Virus record (IMG/VR): IMGVR_UViG_3300049855_000348
Span: 156,490-220,489 of that record
Source of the DNA: a virus
Reading direction: 5' to 3' (one strand)
DNA length: 64,000 nucleotides
Position numbers and translations under genes: made by a program. Positions 8,738 through 64,000 of the stretch are shown piece after piece (within the stretch, counting starts at the first letter, position 1; each line of letters opens with the position of its first letter). Below the pieces are notes generated by a model. The model did no database searches. It had not been told where the DNA came from and worked only from the letters and a program-made list of their open reading frames with translations.

Positions 8738-9360
8738 CAGACGTGGTTGTAGCCGTCCCCACCGTTATCGACGATGCTCTTGGCAGCAACGTTGATCGAT
8801 GGAGCGGTACCAGACTTCGGCCAGTTGGTGTCGAGATCGCGGTTGGCGATATCGGTTTCGTTGACGATGAACGGACGGATCAGACGTTCAGCCCATCCAC
8901 CGACTTCAACCTGAGCCAAGGTGGCTGACTTGTAGAGGATCATGCGACCTTCGTCGCCGACCTGAGCACCTGCGGACATGATCTTTTCGATCACACCGCC
9001 ACCAACGACAGCGCGGGTCGTGTAGGTGTACTCGGATGACGACTTGAGGAACGTGTAGTCCTGGTTCGGTTTGAGACCACTGTTGGTCGGCACGAAGCCA
9101 GAGCCATGCACCGTCGGGACACGCAGAACTTTTGACGGCACCTCTTTCTGCGCTGTCAGACCCGGCTGAACAACGAAGTTCATGTCCCCGATGGTGAACT
9201 GGAGGACCTGATTCTTCTGGTTGTTCTGCGTCTGGAGTGCAGGGTTCTGATTCACTGCCGTCGAATCAAATGGATAGGTGGCGAGCATGGCGTGTTTCTC
9301 CACGCCTATGTAGCTGGACGCAGCGAAAATCAGAGTCAGGAGGGCCAGGGTCCTGATCAT
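8737..9360 (-). CDS. Unknown protein with N-terminal signal or anchor segment
   Basis: 207 residues. The first 19 residues (MIRTLALLTLIFAASSYIG) are basic then hydrophobic, like a signal peptide or membrane anchor. The remainder is polar with many Thr/Val/Gly and several TYTTRAVVGGGV-type beta stretches. The ATG at 9360 overlaps the SbcCD stop (ATGA). An exported protein inside a replication operon is odd. No family recognised. Confidence 0.72.
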   Translation of the reverse strand: MIRTLALLTLIFAASSYIGVEKHAMLATYPFDSTAVNQNPALQTQNNQKNQVLQFTIGDMNFVVQPGLTAQKEVPSKVLRVPTVHGSGFVPTNSGLKPNQDYTFLKSSSEYTYTTRAVVGGGVIEKIMSAGAQVGDEGRMILYKSATLAQVEVGGWAERLIRPFIVNETDIANRDLDTNWPKSGTAPSINVAAKSIVDNGGDGYNHV

Positions 9361-12300
9361 ACCGGTTTGATCGCCCAGGAGGTCTGCTCATCGACCATGG
9401 TGGCCACGATGGTACCAGCACGGCTGGAACCCGGCACATCGGCGTGGGTGATGACGAAGATCCGCTTCACCCGATTGACCATGGAAGCGATCAGATCCTG
9501 CACGGCACGGCGACCCTTCACGTCGAGGGCGTCGAAGACTTCGTCGAGGGCCAAGAAGCCGGCACGGTGCCGAGAACGCTGACGGGCCAACTCGAAGATC
9601 GAGAATAGCGCAGCCAGATCGGTCCACTTGCGCTGACCGCCTGAGCGCCGGCCATACCGTTCCTGGTAGGTCAGATCCGAGTTGAAGGTGAGGGTCATCT
9701 TCCCGCCGAAGTGTTGTCCGATGTAGGACTGGACGACGAGATTGAGTTGTTTCACGCTCTGGTCAAGCAGGAAACCCCTCATGGAGCCCTTAGCGGCAAA
9801 AGCCTTGTCCCAGAACGTGATGTAAGCCGATTTCAGGTCCAGGGCATGCGCCTGAGCCTTTGAGGTTTCCATCGCAGCGAACGCAGCCTGTCGGTCGGCG
9901 ACCAAACGGTCCTTGGCGATCTTCAGAGCGGCAGCCGGGTCGGTGGCGGTGAGGTTGCGCTCCTCTTGAGCCAGGGCCGCCTCGGTAGCGGCTCCACCAG
10001 CCTCCAGGGCCGACTTTTCTTGCAGGAGGGCCGAGAGTTCCCCGGTGAGGCGTTTGTGCTCATCCTGAGCCTTCTGGAGGGCTTCTTTGGCCGAGACGAG
10101 ATCCGTCACCGCCTGTGATGCCAGGATCAGATCGGCCTTGGTCCGGTAGGCACTCATGATGGCAAGTAGACCGTCGAGGATCCGCTGGAAGCCGGAGGCA
10201 GTGATGATGTCCTCCAGCCTCTCCGGCATGGGCAGGCACTGGTTGGCCTGTTCTGCGAATCGAGCATCGACCTGCTGCCGGCGTACGGCGATGGCCTGCA
10301 ACCGAGCTTCCATGTCCGGCAGGGACTTGGTCAGCGTTTCGAGCACGGTCTTGGCCGCAGCCAACTGGGCCAGGGTGGCGAGACCCTTGAGGGATTCATC
10401 AGCCTGAACTCGCAGTGCCTGGGCTTCGCTGATGAGTTTGGTCTGTTCGGCTTTGTAGGTCCGGTACCCTGCTCGCAGGCTCTCCAACTCAGCGTTGAGA
10501 CCCTTCACCACGTTGACCATCGATTCGCCATTGATCGAAGTCAGACACGTCGGGCAGTCACCACCAGTGGTGAGCTTTGAGAGCTTTTCAGCCTTCTGTG
10601 AGATCGGCGTTGCTTGCGTGGTGGTGGCCTCGGCCTTCGCACCTTCAGCCGCAGCCAACTGATCTTTCTGTGTTGCCTCTTGGCGGAGGACGTTGGCACG
10701 TTCATTGGCAGCAACCACTGCCGCTTCCTGTTTCAGTGCCGCTTCGAGACCAGTGATGCGATCACGAACAGTGCCGATCTCCGACTTGAGGATGTTCTCC
10801 TCGTTGGTGATGTTGTTGTGATCGATGCAGCGGGAATTCCAAAGCGATTGAAAGCGAACGATGTTCTTGTTGGTCTCTTCCGCCTTGTCGACGTTGGCCT
10901 TCGCCTCGACACGGATCGCCTCGACACCACCAGAGAGTAGTTGGACCTTCTCGGTCGCAGCCTTCACCACATCGTTGCTGTACTGAATAGTCTGCTCACC
11001 ACTGGCTTCTGCATACATCAAACGTTCGCGTTCTTGACGCATCTTGACCTGATGGTCGTTCTTGCGCTGGGCCACTGAACTCAACATCACCTGATGATTC
11101 TTTTCAGCGTCGAGGATCTGCGTTTCGATGGCAGAGATCTGCGCTGCTGAGCGTTCGATTTCACCAGCACGAACCTTCTGAATGTTGGCCTGTTGTTCGA
11201 GTTGATCACTCATGAGTTTCTTCAACTCACGAGTCTTCTCCAGGTAAGCGTCGAAGCGTTCGAGACCCAGCATCTCTTCGATCATGGCACGACGTTTCTT
11301 CTCGTCTCCGGTCATGAAGTTGGCCGTCACGTTTTGGCCCATGATGTAGGAACGACTGTAGGTCTCACGGTCGATGCCGATGAGATCGATGATCATCTTC
11401 TGGGTAGCTTTCGGATCACCCTTCTCGAATGACTCTTGATAGACGCCATCCTTGTAGACCTTCACACCAGTACCGCCGAGGTCGTGGTACTTGCGGAAGC
11501 GTTCGATGCTCCAGCCGTTGGCATGGTTCACCCGAACGTAGCAGTTCTTCCCCTTGCCGGTGAACTGAGGGTCGTAGACCACATCGTCAGCCTTCATCTC
11601 ATCACGGATGGTCTCGCCGAAGTAGCACCAGAAGATAGCTTCGAGGAACGTGCTCTTGCCGGCACCGTTCTCACCTTCGAGGTACCACACGCCTGGACGC
11701 AGGTCATCAAAATTGATGGTGATCTTTTCCTTCACACCAAGGAAGCCCTCAAGAGTCAGGCTGGAGACTTCACCATCGAAAGCCATGCCACCCTTTTCGG
11801 CATCTTGGAAACGTGAATTCACCTCAGCGATGATCGATTTGCCGAACTGGATGGTGATGTCCACATCCAATTGACTATCGCCAGTGATGACCGACTTCAC
11901 GAAGGGCTCGACGAGGCCAGCGGCGGAGGTGGCTTCAACACCGAGGACTTCAACCTCCTGATCACGAATCGCTTTCTCGATGACCGACTCTTTGCGTACC
12001 GAGATGACACCGGCAGCTTCGAGCTTCAGTTGCAGGGCTTCGTGCTGCTCATCGGTGACGAGGTCGTCATAGATGACAGTGACGAAGCAGTCCTTGAGTG
12101 TGGTCAGATCCTGCGGCAGATCGCTGACACCGAGAACCTTGAAGGCATCGTGGTGTGGATTGAGGATGAACCGGTCGTTACCGGTATCCATGTCGAGGAC
12201 CATGATACCACGCTGGTCACCGGCATCGCCGAAATTGAACTGGAGGGGTGAGCCGCAATAGGTCACCCGGTGATCCATGCGCTGGAAGACGTGGAAGTGG

Positions 12301-12848
12301 CCAGAGTAGGTGGCCTTGAATGGGGCGAACACGTCGGGACCGACAGCACCAGAGAAGGTGGTCTTGTAGCGGGTGTTCTGTACCGCACCGTTGATGCCGA
12401 GGTGACCGAACACGGTCATCTTGGCGGCACGCTCGGGGAACTGCCGGGCGAAGTCCTGCACGAAGGCGACGATCTTCGACTGGTCTTCGTAGTAGGGGAT
12501 GAACAGGAAATGATCACCTACCGGGGTGATCTCACGGAAGACCTTGATCTTCGGATGCATATCCAGTCCGTCGAGACTGCTGACGGAGGTAGAATGCTTG
12601 AGGTTGAGATCGTGGTTGCCCAGGGTGAGGAACACCGGCCACTTGTCGGCGAGCTTGCGAAAGAAGTTGATGGCAGCCGACTGGCTGACCACATCGACCG
12701 CTTCACGGGTAACCAGGGCATCACCCATGCAGACGACGGCCTGCACGCCTTGTCGTTGGAACTCTTCAATGATCCAGTCGCCGGTTTTGATGATGCGATC
12801 CAGCCCCTGTGGCTGGAAGTGGATGTCAGAGAAGATTCCAAGTTGCAT
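9357..12848 (-). CDS. SbcD-SbcC (Mre11-Rad50, gp47-gp46) fusion nuclease
   Basis: A single 1163-residue chain joins both halves of the Mre11-Rad50 complex, which T4 encodes as gp47 and gp46. Residues 1-350 are the calcineurin-type nuclease: DIH, GDA, GNHD, GHL and SGHFH. From about 360 the ABC ATPase begins: GENGAGKST (about 394-402), a long coiled coil, a zinc-hook CPTC near 766-769, SGGQ near 1070, and LALDEVFDALD Walker B/D-loop near 1100. All key residues are present. The complex resects double-strand ends for UvsX-driven recombination. I chose the second ATG (12848) because it lies six bases after the -10 box TAGGAT; the first is three bases further upstream. First gene of the long leftward unit. 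Confidence 0.92.
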   Translation of the reverse strand: MQLGIFSDIHFQPQGLDRIIKTGDWIIEEFQRQGVQAVVCMGDALVTREAVDVVSQSAAINFFRKLADKWPVFLTLGNHDLNLKHSTSVSSLDGLDMHPKIKVFREITPVGDHFLFIPYYEDQSKIVAFVQDFARQFPERAAKMTVFGHLGINGAVQNTRYKTTFSGAVGPDVFAPFKATYSGHFHVFQRMDHRVTYCGSPLQFNFGDAGDQRGIMVLDMDTGNDRFILNPHHDAFKVLGVSDLPQDLTTLKDCFVTVIYDDLVTDEQHEALQLKLEAAGVISVRKESVIEKAIRDQEVEVLGVEATSAAGLVEPFVKSVITGDSQLDVDITIQFGKSIIAEVNSRFQDAEKGGMAFDGEVSSLTLEGFLGVKEKITINFDDLRPGVWYLEGENGAGKSTFLEAIFWCYFGETIRDEMKADDVVYDPQFTGKGKNCYVRVNHANGWSIERFRKYHDLGGTGVKVYKDGVYQESFEKGDPKATQKMIIDLIGIDRETYSRSYIMGQNVTANFMTGDEKKRRAMIEEMLGLERFDAYLEKTRELKKLMSDQLEQQANIQKVRAGEIERSAAQISAIETQILDAEKNHQVMLSSVAQRKNDHQVKMRQERERLMYAEASGEQTIQYSNDVVKAATEKVQLLSGGVEAIRVEAKANVDKAEETNKNIVRFQSLWNSRCIDHNNITNEENILKSEIGTVRDRITGLEAALKQEAAVVAANERANVLRQEATQKDQLAAAEGAKAEATTTQATPISQKAEKLSKLTTGGDCPTCLTSINGESMVNVVKGLNAELESLRAGYRTYKAEQTKLISEAQALRVQADESLKGLATLAQLAAAKTVLETLTKSLPDMEARLQAIAVRRQQVDARFAEQANQCLPMPERLEDIITASGFQRILDGLLAIMSAYRTKADLILASQAVTDLVSAKEALQKAQDEHKRLTGELSALLQEKSALEAGGAATEAALAQEERNLTATDPAAALKIAKDRLVADRQAAFAAMETSKAQAHALDLKSAYITFWDKAFAAKGSMRGFLLDQSVKQLNLVVQSYIGQHFGGKMTLTFNSDLTYQERYGRRSGGQRKWTDLAALFSIFELARQRSRHRAGFLALDEVFDALDVKGRRAVQDLIASMVNRVKRIFVITHADVPGSSRAGTIVATMVDEQTSWAIKPV

Positions 12849-12854
12849 CATCTC

Positions 12855-40565: not shown

Positions 40566-40892
40566 ATGCCGCTGAGCAAAGCTCAGATCCAGATTCTGAC
40601 CAACCCTGCTGTGCGTAAGCGGTTACCCGCCAGGGCGTCAGACTTCAAGTACGCCGACACCCTGCTCAGGGATGTGGGAGAGGGATGTCCTCGACTTCCA
40701 GCAGTCTGGACCAGGGTCTTCTCCAATCTCAGCCCAGCGGATGCTGCGTGGCTGAACCAGACCTTTCCCGGCCATCAATTCGCAGGTGTCGACCCCAAGG
40801 CACCACCACAGCCTTTGCCGCCGTTGGTGAAGCCGTCGAATATCGTTCACCGTGCGATTGAAGTCCTCCAGTCGTACAAGAAAGCCACATGA
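40566..40892 (+). CDS. Small protein heading the virion unit
   Basis: 108 residues, MPLSKAQIQILTNPAVRKRLPARASDFKYADTLLRDVG, then a Pro-rich turn (GVDPKAPPQPLPPLVKPSN) and a C-terminal helix. The ATG follows a late-type hexamer. Overlaps the 1289-residue gene by ATGA, so probably a virion or assembly component. No family recognised. Confidence 0.68.
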   Translation: MPLSKAQIQILTNPAVRKRLPARASDFKYADTLLRDVGEGCPRLPAVWTRVFSNLSPADAAWLNQTFPGHQFAGVDPKAPPQPLPPLVKPSNIVHRAIEVLQSYKKAT

Positions 40893-43800
40893 GCCTCGAT
40901 CGACCACTGTTCTCGACTAGCTCGGTGTATTCGTTGATCGAACTCAACGAAGTCATCACCCGCTACGCTCAAAACGATGAGCAGATGAAGGCTGTCGCCG
41001 AATCGCTCGAACAGATTCTCACCACCGTCTCGGCTGGTCAGATCCTGTCGCCGGCTGATCTCCAGGCTGCGGTCGATGCGATCTATGATGCCGGCAGTCC
41101 GCTGGCCCGTGCCTACATCGTCTCGCCCCCTTCTCGCTCACTGCAAGAGATTGCAAACCTGATGACGATCTCGCCACTGAGCGATCTCATCGAGGGAACC
41201 AAGCTCAACCCCACTGCCTGGATGCCCATCCTGCGCGTGTTCAGCATGCTCAAGGGCATGATCTACCTCGTCGAGAATGGCCCGAGCTACGACGCCGATC
41301 CGGTCTTCGTGAAAGATGGCTCGTTCTTCTTCACGTCGATCACTGATGGCAACAGCCCTGAGGGTCATCTCCTCTGTAGCGAAAATGGCACCGTGCTCGA
41401 AGTCGGTGGACCGATCTACCGTGTCCTGCCTGATGGCACTGATGCGATCACTCTGATCGAGTTTATGCTTCGCCGATTGGAGCAGCAACGCCTGCGCCAG
41501 ATCTATCGTTTGGGCTGCTTCGAGGCATCGGTCGATGCCAAGTACGACTCTGGCAGCAGCTACGATTTCATCGACAAGGTCTTCACCACCGGTGCGGGTC
41601 CTGAATTCAATCAGCGTTTCCCCTGTGGCTACACCGCAGCCGGTGAACTGCTGTTCCTGCGTTCGCAGGCTGGCAAGTACCGTGGTGCCGATCTCAACCT
41701 CTTCCGCCCTGGCTACAGTGCCCAGTCTGGCGTCGAAGATCGAGTCATCATCGGTGAGTCGACGGTGCAGACCCCGATGGGTCTCTTCCATATTCCGCAG
41801 TGCGTTGTGCGCTGGGATCACCTGCTGACCGATGAAGATCGTCAGCCGAATGCTGATGGCGATCCAGTCGTCTTCGTTGGCCTGCGCTTCAAGGTCAGCA
41901 TGCTGAAGCGTACCTCCTACGCCAATGGCGTAGCAGAGCCTGATGCCATCGTTGACGTTGGCACTGGTGATGGCGTCGTACTGATGAAGAGAAATGCCTT
42001 CGGCAGCGAGATCCCGAACTACCCAACGACGTTGACTGGTACCCAAGCTGAGAAGTTCCCAGCCGTCGCGGCTGAGGGTGTTGAACATGGTCGTGTGATC
42101 GGCTTCATCCAAAAGGATGGCCTGAACACCTTCGCTCAGTTCTTCCAGGTCTCACTCGACGTGGCGATCGTCAAACAGCACGGTCGTGCCTTCTTCGAGC
42201 AGGGTGTCGGCTACGCAGCCGGTCAGGTCGATGAGATCGGCAAGCTGGGTGAACTCGGTACCGACATCGACGTGGCCCCATGGCGTGCCTTCGGTACCGG
42301 TCCACGGCATGTGCTCGAAGTGGTGCAGACCGATGCCACGCTCGCCGGTGAAGGCTTCGTGCTTGATGTCGACCAGGGTGTCTTGAAGCGCGAGGAGAAG
42401 ACCTCCGACACTGCTGAATGGGAAGTCATCCTGCCCATCGGCCTGTCGCTGATGAAGAATCAGAAGCCCTTCAGCTTGGGTAACCTCAACGGCTGTTCGA
42501 CCCGCTTCACGGATGCCTGGGCAATCCGTCAGGTGACCAGCGTTCAGAAGTCCCTCAACACGGTCATCTTCGACGATGGCAATGGTGAGCCCGAAGCCTT
42601 CCCCCAGGACTTCATCGGTGCTGAGGTGACCTTCTGGCATGCCGACCGCACCAGCAGCGTGACCACCATCGTGGAGCGTGTTGGCGACCGTCTGGCTCGG
42701 ATCCCGACCGATGTGCTGGCCAAGGTCACCGCAGGTGATGTGGTCACCATCGACCGCCGTAAGCCGTCGAGCAGCTTCGATGGTGCCTACGAGCGTGAGG
42801 CCGGCATCACCAACTTCGTCGACCTGCGTCTGCTGGTACGCCGGATGGTCGATACCGAGGTCGTCCCAAGCTCGGAAGGGCTCCTCTCCCCCAGCCCGTC
42901 ACCAGCCCAGCCCTGGACCGCCCTGGTGCGTTCTAAGCCAGCTTCCCTGGTTCTGGCTGCCATGGCCCCATTCGCCGACAACGTGGCTGCAATCGGCAGC
43001 AAACTGCGTTGGCACTATGCCCAGCAGTTCATCGCCCTGGCCAGCCAGCGGCAGGACATGGTCGACATCACCGGCACCACAGCCGAGCTTCAGTCTTACC
43101 TGCTGCGGTGGGTTCAGAACTATGAGGCTAATAAGAACCACGAGTGGATCGTCGGCGAGGGCTCGATCATCCACTGGCCTGCCAAGAACCCGGTGACCAA
43201 GGTCAACCTGCGCCGATACAGCCCGCCCATCCTCCCTGGGGTGGACGACGGGATCACCATCGAAGAGGTCGCAGGCTGGGGTCCGGTGCCGGTGCTGACC
43301 AAGTACCTCCGCTCCGGTGACAACCAACGCTACCCGCTGCGCATCATCAAGCCGTTGGTCTTCGCCTCCGAGCGTTCCTTCTCGATCCCTGGCCACACCA
43401 AGCTCGCCGGCAGCTTCCGCTTCCAACCCGAGGACACCTGGATCGTTGACGAGGTGATAACCTTCGTCCTCTATCAGACCCAGAACCGCAATGGCCTGAT
43501 CCAGGAGGTGATCCTTGGTTCGTTCGACCTGCGTTGGCAGGAGGCATCCAACTTCTCAAACGCCACGGGCGTGTTCCGTATCGATGACGAGGCGAGCTAC
43601 GATCCGACGACTGGCTTCCTGAACATCAACTACAACCAGATCATCGACTTCACGGTTGAAGAGGCTGGTCGTCTGTCGGTCACTGCCGTCTATCATGACC
43701 TGACTGAGGTTCACCCGATCTACTCTTTCAACCTCGCCCAGTTCGGCCTGAACGTCAGCCATCTGGCCGATGCCAAGGTGTTCTCGATCGTGGACGGCAA

Positions 43801-44758
43801 GGTCGAAGAGAAGGCCGACGTGCTGCGCCTGGAAGGCATCTCGATTTCCAATGGTACGGTCTATATTCGCTTCAACCGTGATGACATCTTCAAAGCCATT
43901 GCTGTGCGTGGCATCTTCAAGACCAAGTGGGTGCTGCGCAACATCGCCTGGATCACCATCACCAACGTTTCGTACGACGAGAACAACATTCCGATCTCTG
44001 TGGAATACGATGCTCAGAACGTGCGTGATGCGATTACCATGTCGACACTGCTGGAAGCAGATAAACGCTGCCGTCAGGTCTACATCCCTTGTGCCACGAA
44101 GTATGGCTGGATCGATGTTGGCCAGACCAACATCCACACCGAGGCCATTCCTCAGAACGATAGTCCACGTTTCGGCTTCTTTGAACTCGACAACATCAAA
44201 GGCATCGACACGGCTCTGTTGATCGATGGTCCGGTCTACAATGCCTTCAAACCGGTCGACATCGACTATCGCTTCCTGGAGAAGTACGTCGACTCAACGG
44301 ATCTCGAAGAGATCAAATCAGTGGCCATCGTTCGTCACATCGTCACCGGCGCACGTCGCGTGTTCGTTGGTGTCTATCGTGAGGCCAACGGCGGCGGTGG
44401 AGTCACTGCTCTCAACAACGAGATCACGCTCGGCACATTGACTGATCAGGACGTTCTGTTCATCAACGATTCGCTGCTGGATTCGTCCTGGGTGCTGGAC
44501 TTCGCTGGTGTCATGACCACGGCACCTGATGGTGGCGTTGGTGACTTCGGTGACTCGAAGCTCATGCTGGCCGGTTACTGGTATGCCGGTCACTCGCTGG
44601 AGGACCGTGCTGGATCCTTCACACGCTTCCGCCCTGACACTGCTCAGTTCAACAGTCCGACCAAGAATGCCGACTTCTATCGTCTCGGCGATGTACCGAT
44701 GTCCTTCCTCTACCGTGGCAACACTCTGCTGTGGTCTGATCACACGAGACCGGCGTGA
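40889..44758 (+). CDS. Large virion-type structural protein, 1289 residues
   Basis: The largest gene in the window. Mostly beta-rich with repeated Val/Gly/Asp strands, few Cys, no enzymatic motif that I can see and no transmembrane segment. A helical N-terminal 100 residues (LIELNEVITRYAQNDEQMKAVAESLEQILTTV) is followed by several beta domains; a Pro/Ser hinge occurs near residue 670 (SSEGLLSPSPSPAQP). Size and composition fit a baseplate, tail or fibre component. Its last codons overlap the polyserine gene (GTGA), so the two are made together. Confidence 0.75.
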   Translation: MSLDRPLFSTSSVYSLIELNEVITRYAQNDEQMKAVAESLEQILTTVSAGQILSPADLQAAVDAIYDAGSPLARAYIVSPPSRSLQEIANLMTISPLSDLIEGTKLNPTAWMPILRVFSMLKGMIYLVENGPSYDADPVFVKDGSFFFTSITDGNSPEGHLLCSENGTVLEVGGPIYRVLPDGTDAITLIEFMLRRLEQQRLRQIYRLGCFEASVDAKYDSGSSYDFIDKVFTTGAGPEFNQRFPCGYTAAGELLFLRSQAGKYRGADLNLFRPGYSAQSGVEDRVIIGESTVQTPMGLFHIPQCVVRWDHLLTDEDRQPNADGDPVVFVGLRFKVSMLKRTSYANGVAEPDAIVDVGTGDGVVLMKRNAFGSEIPNYPTTLTGTQAEKFPAVAAEGVEHGRVIGFIQKDGLNTFAQFFQVSLDVAIVKQHGRAFFEQGVGYAAGQVDEIGKLGELGTDIDVAPWRAFGTGPRHVLEVVQTDATLAGEGFVLDVDQGVLKREEKTSDTAEWEVILPIGLSLMKNQKPFSLGNLNGCSTRFTDAWAIRQVTSVQKSLNTVIFDDGNGEPEAFPQDFIGAEVTFWHADRTSSVTTIVERVGDRLARIPTDVLAKVTAGDVVTIDRRKPSSSFDGAYEREAGITNFVDLRLLVRRMVDTEVVPSSEGLLSPSPSPAQPWTALVRSKPASLVLAAMAPFADNVAAIGSKLRWHYAQQFIALASQRQDMVDITGTTAELQSYLLRWVQNYEANKNHEWIVGEGSIIHWPAKNPVTKVNLRRYSPPILPGVDDGITIEEVAGWGPVPVLTKYLRSGDNQRYPLRIIKPLVFASERSFSIPGHTKLAGSFRFQPEDTWIVDEVITFVLYQTQNRNGLIQEVILGSFDLRWQEASNFSNATGVFRIDDEASYDPTTGFLNINYNQIIDFTVEEAGRLSVTAVYHDLTEVHPIYSFNLAQFGLNVSHLADAKVFSIVDGKVEEKADVLRLEGISISNGTVYIRFNRDDIFKAIAVRGIFKTKWVLRNIAWITITNVSYDENNIPISVEYDAQNVRDAITMSTLLEADKRCRQVYIPCATKYGWIDVGQTNIHTEAIPQNDSPRFGFFELDNIKGIDTALLIDGPVYNAFKPVDIDYRFLEKYVDSTDLEEIKSVAIVRHIVTGARRVFVGVYREANGGGGVTALNNEITLGTLTDQDVLFINDSLLDSSWVLDFAGVMTTAPDGGVGDFGDSKLMLAGYWYAGHSLEDRAGSFTRFRPDTAQFNSPTKNADFYRLGDVPMSFLYRGNTLLWSDHTRPA

Positions 44759-44883
44759 CCAGACCGTTTCCTTATATTGAATTGCAATGCAATTTCGCAG
44801 AGATTGTTATCTGTGCTGAGTCTTCATCGTCTTCTAATGCATCAAGTTCATCAAGTTCTTCTTCATCATCGAGTAATCCATAA
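44755..44883 (+). CDS. Small polyserine-tail protein, copy A (GTG start)
   Basis: A 42-codon gene whose GTG overlaps the stop of the 1289-residue virion gene (GTGA), so translation is coupled. Sequence: MTRPFPYIELQCNFAEIVIC, then AE, five Ser, Asn-Ala, eleven Ser, Asn-Pro, stop. The head (R-P-F-P-Y-I-E-L-x-C-x-F-x-x-I-x-I-C) matches the head of the gene at 63759 at nine identical positions with conservative changes elsewhere, which supports it as real coding sequence. Ser codons are mixed (TCA, TCT, TCG, AGT), so the tail is not a recent repeat. Two Cys seven residues apart could pair or bind a partner. Function unknown; a virion-linked, possibly modified or disordered tail is inferred. Confidence 0.72.
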   Translation: MTRPFPYIELQCNFAEIVICAESSSSSNASSSSSSSSSSSNP

Positions 44884-61767: not shown

Positions 61768-62390
61768 CAGAAGAGGATGAGGTGCGTGATCGCCAGAGCC
61801 CAGCCGGGCTGCTTTTCAATCGGGTAGGTCCAGCGGTGGGCGAACTTCGCACCGTTGGTGAGGATCACCTCGACGGTGTCGAACGTGGCACCGACCGAGG
61901 TCAGGGCATCGAGTTCGACTTCGAGTTCGACAGCGTACTCATCCGCGTTGAACGGATAGGTGACGCCAAGGGAAATGGCCTTCTGAGTCAGTGCCAGACC
62001 GACACCGTTCCACTCCAGACCATCGGCGAGCAAACCGCTCACGTCGGCTTGGGTGTGGAAGTAATTCTCGGTCAGGATCGTGTCGTACTGCGGCAGCGGG
62101 GTGACTTGGGTGACCGGTGCTTCGAGGGGACGGTTGTTGACGTTGTCCCAATGGTTGGCCAGGGCATTGGAGTAGCCGCAACGATACTTCTTCACCTGGA
62201 AGCCGAGACCGATCGAGCCCGGCGTGTTGGAGAACGCAGCCGCAGCCGAACGACGAGCGTCGTTGACGACCGTGTTCTTCTCGAACAGGGAATCGTAGGT
62301 GGTCTTGCCAGTGAGGGCATCCCAGCAACGCATGCGAACGTAGCCCTGGGCAATCTCACCTTTACGGGCGAAAGTATCGTGTGATCTCAT
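61767..62390 (-). CDS. Unknown 207-residue protein, fibre/tail-like
   Basis: MRSHDTFARKGEIAQGYVRMRCWDALTGKTTYDSLFEKNTVVNDARRSAAAAFSNTPG. Beta-rich (ELEVELDALTSVGATFDTVEVILTNGAKFAHRW). The opening NTVVNDARRSAAAAFSNTPG resembles phage proteins that follow fibre or tail genes. Coupled by ATGA to 62387-63247. Confidence 0.68.
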   Translation of the reverse strand: MRSHDTFARKGEIAQGYVRMRCWDALTGKTTYDSLFEKNTVVNDARRSAAAAFSNTPGSIGLGFQVKKYRCGYSNALANHWDNVNNRPLEAPVTQVTPLPQYDTILTENYFHTQADVSGLLADGLEWNGVGLALTQKAISLGVTYPFNADEYAVELEVELDALTSVGATFDTVEVILTNGAKFAHRWTYPIEKQPGWALAITHLILF

Positions 62391-63247
62391 GAGGGCTTCC
62401 GGATGCGAAGGATGTAATTGCCGAGGGAGGAGAACGGGGTCAGATCGAGACCGCTGGTGGCGATACGATAGACGACAACCTGCGGCACACCAGAGAGCAT
62501 GAAGAACGTCGCCTTGTAGGCGGTGGTCGGCAGTTCAACACCATTCTCCAGCAGCGAGATCTCGCCACCGGATTCCTGGAAGTCTGACCAGTCATACTGA
62601 GTGGTCAGTGGGAACACCTGATGGTCGATGTCGTTCAGAGCACCGAAGGAGAAATTGATCCGGATGTTGAGCGGATCCTGTTCGAGGTTGACCGCACGCA
62701 GTGTGGAGGCGGCATAGCCGGTCTCATTCTGCATCGGGCCGGTGTAATAAACATTTTCGTTACCAACCAAAGTCTCCCAGGTCTTGCCGAGGAGAACTCC
62801 GTCGTTGGCGACGATGACCGGATCATTGATGAGAGGGTCATTCCAGAACGTGGCGGCGAACTGGCTGGGCACCTTGGTGTTCAGGAAATACAGGCGCTGA
62901 ACCGGGCCGGCGACCTGAGTCCAGTCGTGGTTGCCGCTCGGGATGAGGACGCTGTTCTGCACACGGACATCGATGTTGATGGCTGCACCGTTGGTGCCGA
63001 TGGCGCGGATGCTGGCGAAGACGGTCAGGTCGGGACCTGCGGCGACACCCTTGTAGGCTTTCGAGCCACGTTCCTTGATGACCTTGAGCAACTTGTTGGT
63101 CGAGTCATACCAGGGCATGCCGGCGACGGCGTAGCCCGGCAGGGAGGCTCCGGCTTGGCTGCTCAGCAGGGAGTTGAAGTTGTCCCGGACAAGCTGGGAA
63201 ACCGCCAAAGAGTTGAATGCCGGTTGTGTCGGGGTGAAGGACTGCAT
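62387..63247 (-). CDS. Unknown 286-residue protein, fibre-like
   Basis: MQSFTPTQPAFNSLAVSQLVRDNFNSLLSSQAGASLPGYAVAGMPWYDSTNKLLKVI: an N-terminal helix followed by a W-Y-D-S-T-N-K-L-L-K strand as in many tail-fibre N-terminal regions. The rest is strand-rich with Thr/Asn/Val. A TAGATA hexamer lies five bases before the ATG, so late expression. Function unproven. Confidence 0.7.
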   Translation of the reverse strand: MQSFTPTQPAFNSLAVSQLVRDNFNSLLSSQAGASLPGYAVAGMPWYDSTNKLLKVIKERGSKAYKGVAAGPDLTVFASIRAIGTNGAAINIDVRVQNSVLIPSGNHDWTQVAGPVQRLYFLNTKVPSQFAATFWNDPLINDPVIVANDGVLLGKTWETLVGNENVYYTGPMQNETGYAASTLRAVNLEQDPLNIRINFSFGALNDIDHQVFPLTTQYDWSDFQESGGEISLLENGVELPTTAYKATFFMLSGVPQVVVYRIATSGLDLTPFSSLGNYILRIRKPS

Positions 63248-63279: not shown

Positions 63280-63687
63280 TCAGTAGAACAGGACGCGCAT
63301 CGAGCCATCAGGTTCCAGTACGGTGGAGATGCCTCGGAATACGAACATTTCACGCTGGGTCAGGGCGACCAATTCAGCCCATGCCTCGTTGGTGTTTGGG
63401 ATGTTCATCACCTTGCCAGCGACCGACTTGGGTGTGGTCACCGAGACCTTCTCACCCATCAGAAAACCAGCGATCTCGTTGATGCCCTTGCTGTCCTTCA
63501 GCAGGGCGTTCTGGATCTCCATGGCGCACTTGCAGTTGGGGTTGTCCTGGTAGCTGTTGATGTTCGCTTCCTGATTGGGGAAGCGTTCGAGGAACCTCCG
63601 GCGACGGGCGACCTCTTCAGGTGTTGGTGCGGCAGCATTCTGATACCGCAGAGCCTGGGTCAGTTGTTGAACGGTAAGTGCTAGCAT
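63280..63687 (-). CDS. Unknown 135-residue protein
   Basis: MLALTVQQLTQALRYQNAAAPTPEEVARRRRFLERFPNQEANINSYQDNPNCKCAMEIQNALLKDSKG. Helical first half with CKC, beta-rich end (EMFVFRGISTVLEPDGSMRVLFY). TCTATA lies seven bases before its ATG, a looser form of the late hexamer. Function unknown. Confidence 0.7.
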   Translation of the reverse strand: MLALTVQQLTQALRYQNAAAPTPEEVARRRRFLERFPNQEANINSYQDNPNCKCAMEIQNALLKDSKGINEIAGFLMGEKVSVTTPKSVAGKVMNIPNTNEAWAELVALTQREMFVFRGISTVLEPDGSMRVLFY

Positions 63688-63758: not shown

Positions 63759-64000
63759 GTGAGACCAGATCCTTTCATCGATATCGTATGTGGATTTTCT
63801 AAAATCCAGTTGTGTCTCGGTTCTTCGGGTCCGTCATCATCCAGTCTTTTTTCTTCAAGCTCTTCTTCGTCCTCAAGCTCAAGCTCGTCAAGCTCAAGCT
63901 CGTCAAGCTCAAGCTCGTCAAGCTCAAGCTCGTCAAGCTCAAGCTCGTCAAGCTCAAGCTCGTCAAGCTCAAGCTCGTCAAGCTCAAGCTCGTCAAGCTC
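63759..64000 (+). CDS. Polyserine-tail protein, copy B, truncated by the window end
   Basis: A rightward frame from the GTG at 63759, open to the window end (80 codons). Head: MRPDPFIDIVCGFSKIQLCL, then G-S-S-G-P-S4-L-F, and from residue 32 an uninterrupted run of 49 Ser. The head matches copy A at 44755 (R-P-x-P-[FY]-I-[DE]-[IL]-x-C-x-F-x-x-I-x-[IL]-C), including two Cys eight apart in position. From residue 39 all codons come from the 15-bp repeat TCAAGCTCAAGCTCG, read as five Ser. The upstream stop is at 63741, and no ATG is available. The opposite strand is also open over the repeat (ELDEL pattern) but has no start and no matching relative. Confidence 0.7.
   Translation, partial: MRPDPFIDIVCGFSKIQLCLGSSGPSSSSLFSSSSSSSSSSSSSSSSSSSSSSSSSSSSSSSSSSSSSSSSSSSSSSSSS
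63873..64000 (+). repeat. 15-bp tandem repeat, about 8.5 copies, runs off the window
   Basis: Unit TCAAGCTCAAGCTCG in perfect tandem copies from 63873 to the end. In the frame of copy B every codon is Ser (TCA, AGC, TCA, AGC, TCG). Perfect identity suggests recent expansion or homogenisation. Confidence 0.95.

Follow-up and report, generated by a model that had tools for sequence, protein, structure and literature searches.

The 64,000-nucleotide stretch of viral DNA analysed here (the window) corresponds to bases 156490-220489 of the 220,489-bp virus record IMGVR_UViG_3300049855_000348, and window and record end together. The last gene of the window, gene B, breaks off within a long run of serine codons. 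What is the place of this run in the protein, and what kind of protein carries it? The initial annotation, made from the letters of the window, described a polyserine tail growing by a perfect 15-bp repeat and suggested a length-variable, phase-variable-like virion or surface element.

A perfect 15-bp array encodes serine at the end of the window

Within the window, gene B is made up as follows.
63759-63851 (+): N-terminal module, 31 aa, GTG start, beginning RPDPFIDIVCGFSKIQLC... (translation)
63852-63872 (+): codon-mixed polyserine, 7 Ser, ahead of the perfect array (translation)
63873-64000 (+): perfect 15-bp tandem array of TCAAGCTCAAGCTCG, running into the contig end (Tandem Repeats Finder)

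The window closes on 49 serine codons in a row (63852-63998, +), in agreement with the at least 49 consecutive Ser annotated. The array is the sole tandem array that Tandem Repeats Finder detected in the 64-kb window. It has a period of 15, 8.5 copies and 100% matches, and each unit encodes 5 Ser. It holds 42 of the 49 Ser codons, so that most of the run does come from exact copies of the unit. Along the run, TCN and AGY codons alternate, and the reported mixing of the two codon families is directly visible. The polyserine flanking the perfect array uses all six Ser codons, which bears out the view that serine persists as the DNA repeat grows. An 18-bp Ser-coding variant unit lies at window positions 63855-63872 and again just past the array at record positions 121-138 (locus L004), on both array sides, as if expansion had happened inside a duplicated block. 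A two-unit 30-mer was absent, as an exact string, from the viral and genome contig collections, from which the records of this or a very near genome were possibly excluded.

The serine run leads into an Ig-like domain

The record begins and ends with the same 128 bp, and its last 128 bp are also those of the window. Translation of record positions 1-435 gives 56 Ser followed by 88 residues and a TAA stop. The part beyond the array continues gene B outside the window coordinates.
Record 127-435: gene B continuation, 14 codon-mixed Ser, 88 aa of He_PIG, TAA at 433-435 (translation)

Neither a stop nor a frameshift follows soon after the window, and the frame is open to the TAA at record positions 433-435. 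Because the frame reads past the junction through Ser into He_PIG, the polyserine of gene B lies inside the protein as a linker and does not form its tail, if both contig ends are one gene. The joined record, with 14 more Ser and 88 residues before the TAA, does not sustain the description as a tail. When the shared 128 bp are counted once, the linker has at least 7 + 42 + 14 = 63 consecutive Ser, the copy number of the array being given as a minimum since the contig end falls inside the repeat. If the contig ends are one gene, at least 63 Ser thus stand between N-module and He_PIG, and the layout of N-module, polyserine linker and Ig-like head comes to at least 182 residues (31 + 63 + 88).

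The contig break was modelled with a toy de Bruijn graph built with the real flanks at k = 99, 119, 121, 127 and 141. At k = 119, 121 and 127, the array broke with a 128-bp shared edge only if it was at least 143 bp long, and a 128-bp array gave no contig break. The shared edge was 113 bp at k = 99 and 143 bp at k = 141. On an assumed assembler k, the tract of gene B would hold at least 68 Ser. We considered the 128-bp ends as a terminal repeat and rejected this reading, since the shared sequence is the array and nothing more, and 128 bp is what the toy graph yields. According to the toy graph, the record ends at this place because the repeat breaks assembly. The record probably represents a whole circular genome, ~220.4 kb plus some number of 15-bp units, closed within gene B.

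The 88 residues after the Ser run matched PF05345 (He_PIG) with 35.4 bits against a cut-off of 24, and this is the one He_PIG match over cut-off in the whole record. A weaker stretch resembling He_PIG, which at 16.4 bits falls below the cut-off, lies in a 451-aa open frame at record positions 90322-90495 (-) (G000, locus L157). AlphaFold gave an all-beta model of the He_PIG part with a pLDDT of 95.2 from a 10-sequence alignment. This all-strand model, together with Foldseek matches to Ig- and cadherin-like folds, predicts a beta-sandwich Ig-like fold. The top Foldseek matches were a Bacteroides alpha-galactosidase (4nzj, TMq 0.83; also 4ogz) and the binding region of the SraP adhesin (4m03, TMq 0.82). 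The nearest PHROG to the He_PIG part was a tail protein (phrog_8763, E 4.2e-6). The C-terminus of gene B reads ...LTIIISGGS and shows no LPXTG-type anchor. No relatives of gene B as a whole were found, and a Ser run longer than 4 occurred in 0 of the 14 viral He_PIG relatives (ORF).

The N-terminal module has a second copy in the window

A second gene of the window, copy A, starts with a similar module.
44755-44883 (+): copy A, N-module then short codon-mixed Ser runs, no Ig domain, 42 aa (translation and alignment)

The N-modules of A and B gave a local alignment score of 55, a value reached in 0 of 20,000 shuffles. Among 3,742 start-codon contexts in the window, the next unrelated one scored 30, as did an overlapping start inside copy A. 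This alignment shows the two modules to be homologous. At up to 3 mismatches, the record contains the module in copies A and B only. A regular expression for it had 0 matches over loci L013-L147. A degenerate pattern matched 4 stretches in other viruses, all at one unrelated locus with an early in-frame stop; these matches were attributed to chance and rejected.

After its N-module, copy A carries Ser runs of 5 and 11, the longest, and then stops. The initial annotation called this an older, codon-mixed tail: the mixed codons are seen, and the word "older" is interpretation. The G+C content is 0.44 in the N-part of gene B, 0.45 in its post-Ser part and 0.38 in copy A, as compared to 0.56 for the window. 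This low G+C makes a recent acquisition possible. Upstream, copy A adjoins a 1,289-aa ORF (window 40889-44758, +) whose stop overlaps the GTG start of copy A. This ORF had no Pfam or PHROG match and no viral relative.

Gene neighbourhood and phage

Gene B, with its GTG start, is encoded on the plus strand and its neighbours on the minus strand.
62387-63247 (-): neighbour gene, 286 aa (ORF), no PHROG or Pfam match
63280-63687 (-): weakly terminase-small-like gene, 135 aa, next to gene B (phrog_5334, E 0.0083, weak)
L004:1503-3110 (-): lectin-like gene with DUF2341 and Laminin_G_3, 535 aa, second gene to the right of gene B

The 286-aa gene had no phage match by tblastn. The DUF2341/Laminin_G_3 gene near gene B fits an adhesion cluster; a search for viral relatives of this gene found none. 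For the neighbour at L004:439-1506, a structure predicted without alignment had a pLDDT of 37.7 and was set aside. We found no convincing promoter for gene B, one weak site lying within the gene, and its expression is a prediction.

The record carries the portal (phrog_213), terminase large subunit (phrog_2), DnaB-like helicase and UvsX-like recombinase families. Among the matches listed, portal and terminase showed no more than ~26-35% identity to known phages, which include many large T4-like or jumbo phages. A search for relatives with the portal gave one 11-kb contig with 54% identity, on which a loose eight-codon Ser-like pattern occurred 13 times, as compared to 13 in the reversed control. 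Elsewhere in the window (9357-12851, -), a 1,164-aa ORF combines an N-terminal calcineurin-like phosphoesterase with a C-terminal AAA_23/SMC_N part and a weak Rad50 zinc-hook match; from these domains it resembles a natural fusion of SbcD and SbcC (Mre11-Rad50).

Polyserine tracts in other viruses

Viral sequences were searched for two copies of the pattern TCN AGY TCN AGY TCN. It was present in at least 118 viral stretches, and all 118 listed were analysed. They gave 125 ORFs in 65 clusters, with 64 representatives of at least 80 aa. In these representatives, among the matches listed, the last Ser run was C-terminal in 34 cases, internal in 22 and N-terminal in 8. All six Ser codons were used in 70 of 141 tracts of at least 20 Ser (again among the matches listed).

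Family scans were run on 51 of the 64 representatives whole, and again on 58 of the 64 with the Ser-rich parts removed, because Ser-rich sequence can inflate matches. He_PIG was not among the families matched in the Pfam scan of the 51 polyserine ORFs. The Ser-trimmed rescan kept baseplate wedge or baseplate families (up to 5 members per family), head scaffolding (3) and head decoration or cement (2), as well as major head, tail assembly and minor tail families. Matches to glycoside hydrolase (2), RNA ligase (1) and DNA methyltransferase (1) were kept as well. As judged from these raw matches, polyserine clearly, though not exclusively, goes with virion proteins. Jumbo-phage-like baseplate wedges (~1,180 aa if complete) with C-terminal polyserine and a GGSSY end were seen in L034, L038, L043, L057, L079, L117 and L126; the length of their polyserine tail differs among near-identical contigs.

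Tract length varies in frame among near-identical contigs

Exact 25-mers on both flanks defined 120 region pairs among the matches listed, one of them within a single contig. The tracts were of unequal length in 53 of the 120 pairs, and 53 of 53 differed by multiples of 3. One baseplate-wedge group had tracts of 20, 30 and 35 residues. Where its 200-bp flanks were 99.5-100% identical, the differences corresponded to whole 15-bp units; in the more diverged wedge contig L043, the tract was also 20.

Indels were then counted in all 118 locus pairs (18 groups, variable or not), the pairs being non-independent. We found 43 indels in 46,276 bp of polyserine, 43 of 43 being multiples of 3, as compared to 50 in 537,997 bp elsewhere, where 31 of 50 were multiples of 3. 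Thus, in near-identical contigs, indel density is about tenfold higher in polyserine than elsewhere. At least one in-tract indel occurred in 9 of the 18 groups, with one contig, L058, supplying 10 of the 43. Tracts longer than ~120 bp may be mis-sized by assembly, and the short ones (L034, L035, L041 and L076 groups) therefore weigh most. Since slippage of a 15-bp unit alone gives multiples of 3, the 43 of 43 in frame are no proof of selection.

A proposed length-variable tether for a surface domain

On balance, and with moderate confidence, we think that gene B encodes a virion-surface Ig-like adhesin or decoration protein carried on a length-variable polyserine tether. The short N-module would anchor the protein to the particle, the run of at least 63 Ser would form a long disordered tether between this module and the head, and the C-terminal He_PIG head would bind a surface sugar or protein. 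Slippage or recombination of the five-codon, 15-bp repeat would add or remove five serines with the frame intact, so that the reach of the Ig head could shift quickly while the protein stays whole. Within this phage, the basis is the array, the read-through into He_PIG, the predicted Ig fold and the module common to A and B; that similar tracts go with virion proteins and change length in frame has been seen in other phages only. For gene B itself, we infer a virion location, a binding role and length variation of its own array. Against this reading stands the N-module, which had no known match in the pattern search in viruses (including the regular expression over L013-L147). The orientation of gene B against its neighbours, its GTG start, the failure to find a convincing promoter or a relative of the whole gene, and the missing Ig domain in copy A also count against it. 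Phase variation in the on/off sense was rejected: the 15-bp unit is five codons inside the frame and alters length without a frame shift. The earlier interpretation is therefore supported in part: serine is retained, and comparable tracts in other phages vary in length in frame and often sit on virion proteins, whereas the tail and phase variation in the on/off sense are not borne out.

The same tracts may have lengthened neutrally, a short polyserine linker having been seeded once and then extended by slippage, with its length tolerated and not used. We consider this rather unlikely. It would account for a perfect array that looks recent beside its codon-mixed flanks, slippage requires no selection, and half of the groups in other phages are without length change. 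However, the Ser frame persists with both codon families in many unrelated virion proteins (70 of 141 tracts with all six codons, among the matches listed), which suggests that Ser itself is retained. The array could also be primarily a DNA element for replication, packaging or recombination, with polyserine as a by-product. Its directly repeated 15-mers presumably resemble iterons, and it lies at the ends of the record. Yet the flanking codons are diverse in sequence and all encode Ser, the array sits within a coding frame with a recognisable domain, and repeat-broken assembly accounts for the record end. Moreover, the exact 30-mer was absent from the viral and genome contig collections while the Ser pattern occurs in at least 118 stretches. 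We give this possibility very little credence.

Another reading concerns the junction: an array that two places have in common and that exceeds the assembly k-mer in length would end contigs at both, and the record could then be a linear fragment with two different array-bearing genes at its ends, not a circle closed in one gene. This is improbable, given that the frame runs on across the junction, that the 18-bp variant block flanks the array on either side, that minus-strand neighbours lie on both sides and that the record has a single He_PIG match over cut-off; moreover, one array of at least 143 bp is expected to leave a 128-bp shared edge at k = 119-127. A pure Ser tract also offers many acceptor hydroxyls, and the Ig head is similar to the binding region of SraP. 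The polyserine might accordingly serve, in the style of serine-rich-repeat adhesins, as a scaffold that carries O-glycosylation or some other modification and so gives the virion a coat or shield. A cell-wall LPXTG anchor is a feature of SraP-type serine-rich-repeat glycoprotein adhesins, and the C-terminus of gene B is without an anchor of this type; we regard such a scaffold as highly unlikely.

Beyond the tether proposed for gene B, we suggest tentatively, as an idea that falls somewhat short of probable, that a hypervariable virion element, apparently not yet described, is widespread among tailed phages in the form of polyserine stalks and tails on their virion proteins (baseplate wedge, capsid, cement, tail tube, fibres), with length tuned by in-frame, often five-codon, slippage. 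Gene B, with at least 8.5 perfect units feeding an Ig-like head, would be a clear case. If so, phages would own a simple in-frame means of setting how far surface domains reach, unlike diversity-generating retroelements or on/off phase variation. The array would explain the contig end seen here, and gene callers would miss the Ig half wherever a contig ends within such a protein. Since the pattern recurs in many phages, the idea can be checked in existing long-read viromes.

Comparison with known systems

Keyword searches of openly licensed PMC papers gave, among the matches listed, no description of recurrent long, length-variable polyserine on phage virion proteins. Polyserine linkers of bacterial enzymes, length-variable polyserine in MG192 and a linker-borne Ig domain on pb10 are already known (PMC2386152, PMC2169797, PMC5292684). 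In carbohydrate-active enzymes of Saccharophagus degradans and Cellvibrio, long Ser runs, among them runs of 25-58 residues, separate functional domains (PMC2386152), and the long Ser run of gene B likewise separates parts of a protein. The bacterial linkers join catalytic and carbohydrate-binding modules (PMC2386152), whereas gene B is phage-encoded, with a short N-side module and a perfect 15-bp array.

In MG192 (MgPa) of Mycoplasma genitalium, the copy number of an AGT repeat sets polyserine length; slipped-strand mispairing or recombination has been proposed, and the tract is a possible flexible spacer (PMC2169797). As in MG192, an in-frame DNA repeat of gene B encodes Ser. The MG192 unit is, however, a single codon in a gene of a bacterial adhesion operon, whereas that of gene B has five codons, TCN and AGY, and belongs to a phage.

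The decoration protein pb10 of phage T5 has an N-terminal anchoring part, an extended linker and a C-terminal Ig-like domain that moves partly independently (PMC5292684). Gene B resembles it as a small phage protein with N-part, linker and C-terminal Ig-like domain; as in pb10/Hoc-type proteins, the Ig-like domain is carried on a small protein. In pb10 the capsid-binding domain is helical and the linker a short poly-proline one, whereas in gene B the N-part measures 31 residues and the linker at least 63 Ser. Finally, in tail-associated proteins of crAssphage, tandem repeats of the Ig-like BACON domain evolve by tandem duplication (PMC6949934). There, whole domains repeat; in gene B, it is the linker that repeats and the domain that is single.
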